Assembly: GCA_947487205.1 (NCBI GenBank) | Contig: CANKVU010000002.1 | Coordinates: 62,001-126,000, forward strand | DNA from: an uncultured Paracoccaceae bacterium | GTDB lineage: Bacteria; Pseudomonadota; Alphaproteobacteria; Rhodobacterales; Rhodobacteraceae | DNA: 64,000 bases | Direction of reading: 5' to 3' | Shown: positions 39,363-42,606 of the stretch, in pieces | Numbering within the stretch: position 1 is the stretch's first letter | Layout of the letters: each line of letters opens with the position of its first letter | The notes under the pieces: model-generated | Databases searched by the model: none | Told to the model about the DNA's origin: nothing | Seen by the model: the letters and a program-made list of their open reading frames with translations, nothing else | Position numbers and translations under genes: made by a program

Positions 39363-40943
39363 TCATCCCCCCGTCCGCGCAGCGCCGCAGCCGCCGGTGG
39401 AAAAGCAGGTGGCGAGCATCCCCCGCAGATCCGCCATGCTGCGTTCGGCCAGGTCCGCTTCCGGCAGCATGCCGTCCGACCAGCGCCCCGGCAAGCGGTC
39501 GAGCAGCCGCGCATCGCGCGCGATGACGTGGATCGGCACCGCCGCGCTGACGCTCGTGCCGGCGACGAGCGGCGCGGGCTGGTGGTCGCCCAGGACCACG
39601 ACTAGCGCGTCGCCGGCCGATCGGGCCACCCATTGGGCCACCACCTCGACCGCGTAGTCGAGGGCGCGGGAATAGGCCGCGCGGATCGTGTCGGGCGCCG
39701 ACCACACCTCCGCCGGGGTCGCGCCCGACCGGCGGCGGCCGTCGAAGGCCGCCCCGTCCCCCACCGCCTCCCAGGGCAGGATCTCGGGCAGGGGCGTCCA
39801 CGGCGCGTGCGAGGAGATGAGCGCCGCCTCCACCATCACCGGCGGCCCGCCGCCCGCCCGCGCCAGGCGGTCGAGGGCGGCGAGCGTGTACTGGTCGGGC
39901 ATCGTCACCCAGTCGAAGGGCCGCCCGCGATAGCCGAGCCGGTCGCGGTCGAGCACCACGTCGTAGCCGAACCAGGCCGCCTCCGGCCAGGCGCGGGTGA
40001 TCGCGGGCATCACCGCCACCGTGCGCCACCCCGCCCGCGCGAAGAGGCGGTTGAGCGACGGCCGGCCGGAGGCGACGAGGGCGTCGTACCGGGCCTGGCC
40101 CGCGGTCCAGAGCCCCGACATCGCCGTGCCGTGGGACAGCCAGCTCTGCCCGCCGCGGGTCGGCGCCCGCATCCATCCCGACCGCACCGCGAACCCCGCC
40201 GCGGCGAGCCGCGCCTCGGCGGCGGCGAGCCGCGCCCGTCCGGTGCGGGCATAGGGCTCCGCCTCGAGCCAGGCGCGCCCGTAGCTCTCGACGAAGAGGA
40301 CGATCACGTCGCGCCCGGCGAGGGCGGCGAAATCTGGCGGCGGCAGGCCGTCGCGGGACAGGTCGCGGGCGAAGTCGCGCTCGTCGGCGAGCGCCGCCTG
40401 AAGCCGCCCGGCGCGCTCGGCGACGGCCTGCGGCAGGACCGGCGCCGACCCTGCCGCGAGGAGGAGGAGCGCGGCGGCCCCGGCGGCGGCGGCTGTGGCG
40501 GCGGGTGCGCCCCGCGCCAGCCGGGTCAGCCCGCCGAGCGCCCAGTGGAGCGCCGCGAAGACCGCCCCGAAGGCCAGGATCGCGGCGGCGAGGGCCGCGC
40601 CCGCGGCCGCCGCGCCGAAGGTGCCCGCCGCCAGCGTCCAGCCCGAGGCCACCAGGTGCAGGTCGAGCACCGGGTTGAAGCCGCGGCGAAACGCGACGAC
40701 CATGCCCAGATCCGCAAGCCGCCACAGGCTCAGCGCCGCCAGCGCCGCCACCAGGGCGGCCCGCAGCCACGCCGTGCCCCGCACCGGAAGGCAGAGGACG
40801 AGCACGATGACGGCCAGATCGGCGGGAGGCGGGACGAAGTGGGACAGGCGGTAGGCCTCGGGGCGGCTCGGCAGCGGCAGCAGCACCGCCAGCAGCAGGA
40901 CGGCCAGCGCGGCGCGCAGCGGTGTTGAGATCCGCGCGGTCAT
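39363..40943 (-). CDS. Membrane-anchored sulfatase/phosphoglycerol transferase-like protein
   Basis: A 526-residue protein of the alkaline-phosphatase superfamily. Residues ~1-190 form about five membrane segments. The soluble domain begins ALAGRDVIVLFVESYGRAWLE (metal-binding strand; the Glu/Ser pattern differs from classical sulfatases), then GGQSWLSHGTAMSGLWTAGQ, in which the Ser or Thr could be the nucleophile, and ends with ALVVVLGDHQPAPLVAG, the metal His motif. The layout is like LtaS and MdoB-type phosphoglycerol transferases, shorter. The substrate is unknown; the neighbours suggest a lipid headgroup. The first 22 bp overlap the divergent flippase-like gene. Confidence 0.8.
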   Translation of the reverse strand: MTARISTPLRAALAVLLLAVLLPLPSRPEAYRLSHFVPPPADLAVIVLVLCLPVRGTAWLRAALVAALAALSLWRLADLGMVVAFRRGFNPVLDLHLVASGWTLAAGTFGAAAAGAALAAAILAFGAVFAALHWALGGLTRLARGAPAATAAAAGAAALLLLAAGSAPVLPQAVAERAGRLQAALADERDFARDLSRDGLPPPDFAALAGRDVIVLFVESYGRAWLEAEPYARTGRARLAAAEARLAAAGFAVRSGWMRAPTRGGQSWLSHGTAMSGLWTAGQARYDALVASGRPSLNRLFARAGWRTVAVMPAITRAWPEAAWFGYDVVLDRDRLGYRGRPFDWVTMPDQYTLAALDRLARAGGGPPVMVEAALISSHAPWTPLPEILPWEAVGDGAAFDGRRRSGATPAEVWSAPDTIRAAYSRALDYAVEVVAQWVARSAGDALVVVLGDHQPAPLVAGTSVSAAVPIHVIARDARLLDRLPGRWSDGMLPEADLAERSMADLRGMLATCFSTGGCGAARTGG

Positions 40944-41776
40944 GGCTGCGGCTGGTCCTGCCGCTGGCGCTCCTCGCGCTGGTCCTCTGGGCGGTGGAGC
41001 CCGGCGCGGCCTGGGCGCGCCTGCGCGGCGCCCGGGTCGCGCCGCTCCTGGGCGCGCTGGCGCTCGCCCACGTGGTGATCCTCGCCTCGGCGGCCCGCTG
41101 GGCCGACACCGCCGCCCGGCTGGGCCACCCGGTGCCGCGCCGCCGGGCGGTGGCGGAATACTACGCCGCGAGCCTGCTCAACCAGGTCCTTCCGGGGGGC
41201 GTGGCGGGGGATGCAGTGCGGGTCTGGCGCGGCCGATCGCGGGGCGGCGCCGGACCGGTCGCCCGGGGCGTGGTGATCGAGCGGCTGTCGGGGCAGGTCG
41301 CGCTGGCCGGGGCGCTGGGGCTGGGCCTGGCGCTCGGCGGGGTGCCGGGCACGGGACGGCTCGCGGCGCTCTTCGCCGCCGGGCTGGCGGCGGTGCTGGC
41401 CGGGCTGGCGCTGACGCGCGGCTTCGGCGGGGATCTGCGCCGGGCCTGGGCCACGCCCGGCGCGGCGGCGGCGCAAGCGGCGCTGAACGCCGTGGTCGTC
41501 GCGGCGCTGATCGGCGGGTTCTGGCTGTGCGCGCGGGCGGTCGGCACGCCCATGGCTCCGGCAGAGGCGCTCGTCCTGGTGCCCGTGTGCCTCGTCGCGA
41601 TGCTGCTGCCGGCCGGGATCGGCGGCCTCGGCCTGCGCGAGGGCGCCGCGGCCGCGCTCTGGCCGCTGGCCGGCCACCCGGCCGAGGCCGGGGTCGCGGC
41701 CGCGCTGCTCTTCGGGGCGGCGGCGCTCGCCGGCGCGCTGCCGGGGGCGGTGGTGTTGTCGCGTCACCGTTCCTGA
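40922..41776 (+). CDS. Flippase-like UPF0104 membrane protein (LPG synthase TM domain)
   Basis: A 284-residue protein with about eight hydrophobic segments, of the lysylphosphatidylglycerol synthase TM / AglD family. Marks are AEYYAASLLNQVLPGGVAGDAVRVWRGR, in which the N-Q-x-LPGG-x-GD motif is clear, RGVVIERLSGQVAL and VPVCLVAMLLPAGIGGLGLREGAAAAL. Relatives move isoprenoid- or glycerol-linked lipids across membranes. The start is GTG at 40922, needed to keep TM1; no good ribosome-binding site is seen and it lies inside the divergent gene. Its last 13 bp overlap the convergent CDP-alcohol phosphatidyltransferase gene. Confidence 0.82.
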   Translation: MLRSARSWLRLVLPLALLALVLWAVEPGAAWARLRGARVAPLLGALALAHVVILASAARWADTAARLGHPVPRRRAVAEYYAASLLNQVLPGGVAGDAVRVWRGRSRGGAGPVARGVVIERLSGQVALAGALGLGLALGGVPGTGRLAALFAAGLAAVLAGLALTRGFGGDLRRAWATPGAAAAQAALNAVVVAALIGGFWLCARAVGTPMAPAEALVLVPVCLVAMLLPAGIGGLGLREGAAAALWPLAGHPAEAGVAAALLFGAAALAGALPGAVVLSRHRS

Positions 41777-42501
41777 CCGAGCCGCGCCAGGTCGCGCGCG
41801 AACGAGGCGAGGATCGCGACCAGGCAGGTCCAGACCAGCGCCCGCCCCGCCGCCGCCGGCAGCGGCAGCGCCAGCAGCGCGATCGGCGTGGCCACCTGCA
41901 GCACGCAGACCGCCTTGCGGATGCGGGATGGGGGCAGGGGGCGGCCGAACCGCGGCCGCCACGCCCGCAGCACCGAGAAGGCGTAATAGGGCGCGATCAG
42001 GGCCAGGATCGCGGGCCCGGCCGGCCCCGTCCGCCAGGCCAGGACCGAGAGGACGAGGGTCAGCGCGGCGTCGACCTCCACGTCGAACCGGGCGCCGAAG
42101 GGCGAGGCGAGCCCGGTGCGCCGCGCCGCCGCGCCGTCGATCCCGTCGAGCGCCAGAATCGTCCCCCCGGCCGCGACGGCCACCGTCGGGGTCAGCGCCC
42201 CGAGCGCGGCGGGGTCGAGCGCCAACGCGGCGAGGCCCGCGACCCCCGCCGCCCGCAGCGCCGTCACCGCGTTGGCGGGGCCGAAGCGGGGATGCAGATG
42301 GGCGCGCAGCCCCGCCAGCACCAGCCCCGTCACCACCGCCCAGACGAGCGGCAGGAACGGCGCGGGGACGATCTCGGACCGCGCGGCGATCCCGGCCCCC
42401 ACCGCCCAGAGCCCCAGCCCGAGCGCCGCGCAGCACAGGAGTGCCCCCGGCCGCGCCCGGTCGGCCGCATGCGCAGGACGGGGCGGATCGGTCGCCGAGA
42501 T
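41764..42501 (-). CDS. CDP-alcohol phosphatidyltransferase, probable ATC start
   Basis: A 245-residue (if started at ATC) membrane enzyme that joins a CDP-activated alcohol to a second alcohol. The catalytic motif DGIDGAAARRTGLASPFGARFDVEVD fits D-x2-DG-x2-AR-x8-G-x3-D-x3-D exactly. The track start (GTG, 42402) cuts a hydrophobic segment; reading upstream gives SATDPPRPAHAADRARPGALLCCAALGLGLWAVGAG before an in-frame TAG. The only well-placed initiator in this stretch is ATC at 42501-42499, 7 bp after AAGGAG. The substrate is unknown. Its 3' end overlaps the flippase-like gene. Confidence 0.8.
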   Translation of the reverse strand: MSATDPPRPAHAADRARPGALLCCAALGLGLWAVGAGIAARSEIVPAPFLPLVWAVVTGLVLAGLRAHLHPRFGPANAVTALRAAGVAGLAALALDPAALGALTPTVAVAAGGTILALDGIDGAAARRTGLASPFGARFDVEVDAALTLVLSVLAWRTGPAGPAILALIAPYYAFSVLRAWRPRFGRPLPPSRIRKAVCVLQVATPIALLALPLPAAAGRALVWTCLVAILASFARDLARLGQER

Positions 42502-42508
42502 GGGTCTT

Positions 42509-42514
42509 CTCCTT
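42509..42514 (-). promoter_or_regulatory. Shine-Dalgarno AAGGAG preceding an ATC codon
   Basis: AAGGAG on the minus strand with a 7-base spacer to ATC (42501-42499). It decides the proposed start of the CDP-alcohol phosphatidyltransferase gene; no ATG, GTG or TTG in frame is near it. Confidence 0.5.
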
Positions 42515-42606
42515 CGCGATGTGCGGTCCAGCTATAGCAGTCCCGGCGCCCGGCGATCGAGCCCGGGGCTGCTACATTCTGGCGCAGACAGGCGGAGGGC
42601 TTGGCG

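Follow-up and report, generated by a model that had tools for sequence, protein, structure and literature searches.

To our knowledge, few bacterial genes start at an ATN codon other than ATG; infC, which encodes IF3, is the textbook case, and an ATC start is almost only known from this gene. The pcnB gene of E. coli has an AUU start, which presumably serves to hold down the level of a potentially harmful enzyme. In E. coli infC starts at ATT, in Streptomyces at ATC; non-canonical starts repressed by IF3 include those of infC and of sigR, the latter a GTC (PMC5472188). In Streptomyces the sigR start has been examined by exchanging the start codon, by supplying additional infC and with fidelity mutants of infC (Feeney et al. 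2017, PMC5472188). For IF3 fidelity mutants in E. coli, 3- to 15-fold increases in expression from such starts are reported (PMC5472188).

Here we describe a further instance of this kind, not a new kind: a gene for a membrane-lipid enzyme in the window (the whole 64,000-nucleotide stretch of DNA analysed, from an uncultured Paracoccaceae bacterium), whose sequence gives good support for a start at ATC (Table 1). As in infC and sigR, no canonical codon is found at the apparent true N-terminus, and a near-cognate codon stands behind a Shine-Dalgarno sequence. The likeness to infC extends to the usual distance between a Shine-Dalgarno-like site and ATC, to the general lack of a canonical codon that would fit the N-terminus and to the recurrence of the codon in another species, here in one relative, two species being too few to show selection. 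However, infC encodes the repressor itself and is autoregulated, whereas the present gene encodes an enzyme that is not known to be linked to translation, and the infC ATC is invariant in the genus, whereas here ATC occurs in two of four to five orthologues. Like sigR, the gene lies outside the translation machinery, and its non-canonical start follows a strong ribosome-binding site, recurs in a second species of the genus and was missed by annotation rules; unlike sigR, its codon is ATC rather than GTC, and its start is proposed from sequence. It shares with pcnB a near-cognate AUN start, although the codon differs and the protein is unrelated.

Read 5′ to 3′ on the minus strand, the start region consists of a TAG stop, ten non-coding-like codons that include AAGGAG, a 7-nt spacer and the ATC at 42501, followed by 32 codons free of ATG, GTG and TTG up to the GTG at 42402. 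The initial annotation had described a frame open from the TAG, an ATC 7 bp after AAGGAG, the absence of ATG, GTG and TTG between the TAG and the GTG, and a hydrophobic segment that the GTG would cut; each of these was borne out, the last by residue 34 falling inside a helix predicted by AlphaFold2. Because the TAG is in frame, any start further upstream is excluded. Residues 2–20 of the ATC-read protein are SATDPPRPAHAADR. A promoter scan upstream of the gene found no consensus site.

Table 1. Features of the gene and its start region (positions within the window).
Feature	Position	Strand	Remarks
CDP-alcohol phosphatidyltransferase gene, with ATC as its start	41764..42501	-	245 codons + stop; PF01066 match
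Proposed start codon ATC	42499..42501	-	Sole fitting position behind the Shine-Dalgarno; ATC in G011, ATG in G012 and G676
Shine-Dalgarno AAGGAG, 7 nt before ATC	42509..42514	-	From sequence; AAGGAGG at the corresponding G011 site
In-frame stop TAG	42532..42534	-	Rules out starts further upstream
TATAGC, possible -10 element, weak, without consensus -35	42531..42536	-	Found by eye; aligns with a TATATG-like stretch of G011
Predicted transmembrane helix 1, residues 18–40	42382..42450	-	AlphaFold2 model, moderate confidence
GTG, first canonical start-type codon, residue 34 within helix 1	42400..42402	-	Judged a non-start

By family profile and motif, the protein is a CDP-alcohol phosphatidyltransferase. 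It matches PF01066 with 42 bits against a cut-off of 22, and the motif DxxDGxxAR...GxxxDxxxD is intact (DGIDGAAAR and GARFDVEVD), with acidic residues that are invariant in 12 homologues. Given this intact catalytic motif, the gene does not look decayed. None of the subfamily models reaches its own cut-off for this protein, and its relatives of known structure, choline/ethanolamine phosphotransferases and phosphatidylserine synthases, are distant. Two genes lie beside it, at 39363–41776. One encodes a sulfatase-like membrane protein, for which the thresholds used gave no Pfam or NCBIfam match; the other encodes a flippase-like protein of the LPG-synthase type. The sulfatase-like gene adjoins CDP-alcohol phosphatidyltransferase homologues throughout the family, which suggests an uncharacterised lipid-modification module.

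We scored all six frames with a codon model trained on the codon usage of the same genome. The frame between ATC and GTG scored -1.1 bits, the best of the six; the remaining frames scored -10 to -22. Over the ten codons that precede ATC the score was -13.9 bits. The coding signal is already present before the GTG, with a score maximum that starts at 42441, and coding statistics set in near the ATC. The first ~18–20 codons after ATC have a weak coding score, and this N-terminal stretch is poorly conserved. Structure prediction places the GTG within helix 1, for which pLDDT is only about 55–65. Homologues from other genera start some way ahead of helix 1, and none of the homologues examined begins at the GTG equivalent, a start that would have spoken against the ATC; the family starts upstream of the first membrane helix. 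We conclude that, on the predicted model, the GTG is a poor start.

The closest homologue, in genome G011 of the same genus, is 55–56% identical and has the same two neighbours as the window gene, one divergent and encoding an FkbM methyltransferase, the other convergent and flippase-like. Its leader reads CGCAAGGAGGCCAATCAC-ATC-ACC-ACG-AGC-GAT, with AAGGAGG-N8-ATC (equivalent to AAGGAG-N9-ATC) at the aligned position, a spacing that differs by 2 nt from that of the window gene. No canonical codon was found in G011 between the Shine-Dalgarno/ATC and a GTG in the first membrane helix. An in-frame ATG lies upstream in G011, within a TATATG-like stretch and without a Shine-Dalgarno, and could be the start in that species; it falls roughly where the window has TATAGC and the stop, and indels separate the two leaders there. 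At the position aligning with the ATC, ATG is found both in G012 (52–54% identical) and in G676, which belongs to another genus (47–50%) and also has an FkbM neighbour. The N-termini align as ISATDPP (window), ITTSDTP (G011), MSDIQDSP (G012) and MTRIDPLS (G676), so the ATC occupies the place of a start codon. The proposal that this ATC is the probable start is thus supported, at the level of sequence, by the ATC at the same aligned place in G011 and by the ATC start of infC.

Matches to records from Qingshengfaniella, Roseitranquillus and Marivita assign the genus to the Rhodobacteraceae/Paracoccaceae. The gene is present in 8 of the 15 genomes of the genus. The two ATC carriers are not grouped by the housekeeping tree, in which deep nodes are weak, and the orthologue tree is compatible with either a single or a double change from ATG to ATC (support 0.36). 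No further ATC orthologues were found in plasmid records, in a scan of genome contigs or in about 1300 genomes. The homologue of Qingshengfaniella alkalisoli (WP_168201387.1; G132, plasmid NZ_CP042264.1, L070:2827) has an annotated TTG start with an in-frame ATG ten codons upstream (MHGLRDSGLP); it probably starts at this ATG, the annotation being too short. Several other family homologues (L031, L035, L040, L045, L052 and L113) have, by eye, -35/-10-like boxes close to their ATG; boxes so close make leaderless or very short-leader transcripts likely, and these upstream regions are unlike that of the window gene with its Shine-Dalgarno.

Initiation at ATC probably operates in these cells, since infC starts at ATC, before the conserved N-terminus ARRPHNAPP, in every one of the genus's 15 genomes. 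In the window's own genome infC reads GGAAGGACCACACCC-ATC (G000:C10:17481; L089:17481; L063), and across the genus its leader context resembles that of the CDP-alcohol phosphatidyltransferase gene. Together with the literature on IF3 control, the infC start leads us to expect both ATC initiation and its control by IF3 here. Gene callers limited to ATG, GTG and TTG would misplace the infC start in this genus. A maf-like gene directly after infA, the gene for IF1 (L090:18060-18666, that is G000:C10 at about 38102; L093, L099, L100), has no ATG, GTG or TTG before its conserved start in G000, G002, G010 and G012. In G010 it has ATC-CGG-CTG where others have ATG-CGC-CTG; in G000, G002 and G012 it seems to depend on CTG or on being coupled to the stop of infA.

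We surveyed 464 kb of the window's genome (346 genes) for strong sites, defined as a 6-mer Shine-Dalgarno 5–10 nt upstream of a codon; a survey based on coding boundaries only had recovered neither infC nor the CDP-alcohol phosphatidyltransferase gene. ATG followed such a site 38 times, against 6.2 expected, and 0.56% of all ATCs did so. Among the 346 genes, only infC and the present gene combine a strong Shine-Dalgarno and ATC with the lack of a better canonical start. Two candidates were rejected as chance: ATA/CTG at L075:5093, where a shadow frame precedes a glycogen-debranching-like gene, and ATC at L083:3879, inside a gene with its own ATG.

If translation began downstream, at the near-cognate CTG 42438 in the helix-1 segment or at the GTG, and AAGGAG–ATC were a chance arrangement, the weak coding signal over the first ~20 codons and the position of the coding-score maximum would be accounted for, and the CTG would retain most of helix 1. 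Such a start would not explain, however, why a strong Shine-Dalgarno is present before the ATC and recurs in G011. Neither codon has a good Shine-Dalgarno ahead of it, orthologues carry tails of 15–25 residues before helix 1 and the GTG cuts that helix in the predicted structure; we consider a downstream start improbable. Still less probable, to the point of being very unlikely, is that the natural codon is ATG and that the start was recently lost by mutation, or the assembly is wrong here, the gene being silent or mis-sequenced. That G012 and G676 have ATG here and that the gene is patchily distributed in the genus would fit this, but the independently assembled G011 carries ATC at the corresponding place despite the divergence of the two proteins, and both the reading frame and the catalytic motif are preserved. 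The combination of ATC in G011 with ATG at the same place in G012 and G676 makes a sequencing error or fresh mutation unlikely, and, given also the strong Shine-Dalgarno, we would not expect resequencing to reveal an ATG at 42501.

A real alternative concerns the second half of our claim, regulation, and is compatible with ATC as the start: the codon may be a slightly deleterious drift state without regulatory meaning, tolerated as little enzyme is needed. Two of the four to five orthologues keep ATG without sign of trouble, and RNA folding of the leader gave no unusual structure at the start (z 0.61), both of which are consistent with drift. Yet ATC and a strong Shine-Dalgarno have lasted through a deep split in the genus, even though reversion to ATG takes a single base. 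We rate drift as a serious possibility, at somewhat less than an even chance. Counting against the ATC start itself are that only two species carry it, that the N-terminal ~18 residues are poorly conserved and weak as coding sequence, and, further, the upstream ATG of G011, the 2-nt difference in spacing and the lack of a consensus promoter.

On balance, we think it probable that ATC 42501 is the start and that weak, IF3-sensitive initiation limits the dose of a membrane-lipid enzyme. AAGGAG would set the mismatched ATC in the ribosomal P site, where the initiator tRNA would read it as fMet. Since a third-position mismatch in a start codon leads IF3 to reject it, initiation would be weak and responsive to IF3; low IF3 would increase it, as with infC on ATC in the same genome. 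The expected outcome is a permanently low, IF3-coupled dose of enzyme. The low rate and the response to IF3 are what infC and sigR would lead one to expect, and from these we infer a control role that would limit synthesis of the enzyme; the physiological reason for such a limit is likewise inferred.

These results have a practical side, since gene calling limited to ATG, GTG and TTG can cut off a membrane helix. They also provide a metabolic gene on ATC in two well-separated species of a genus with infC on ATC, and thus a testable IF3-linked case outside the translation machinery. It is conceivable, although on present evidence rather unlikely, that the ATC shared by the two species couples membrane-lipid synthesis to the level of IF3, as a lipid-gene counterpart of sigR. 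If so, infC and the membrane-lipid enzyme would rise together when IF3 is scarce or initiation fidelity falls, and the gene would perhaps belong to a small group of genes in the genus that start at ATC.
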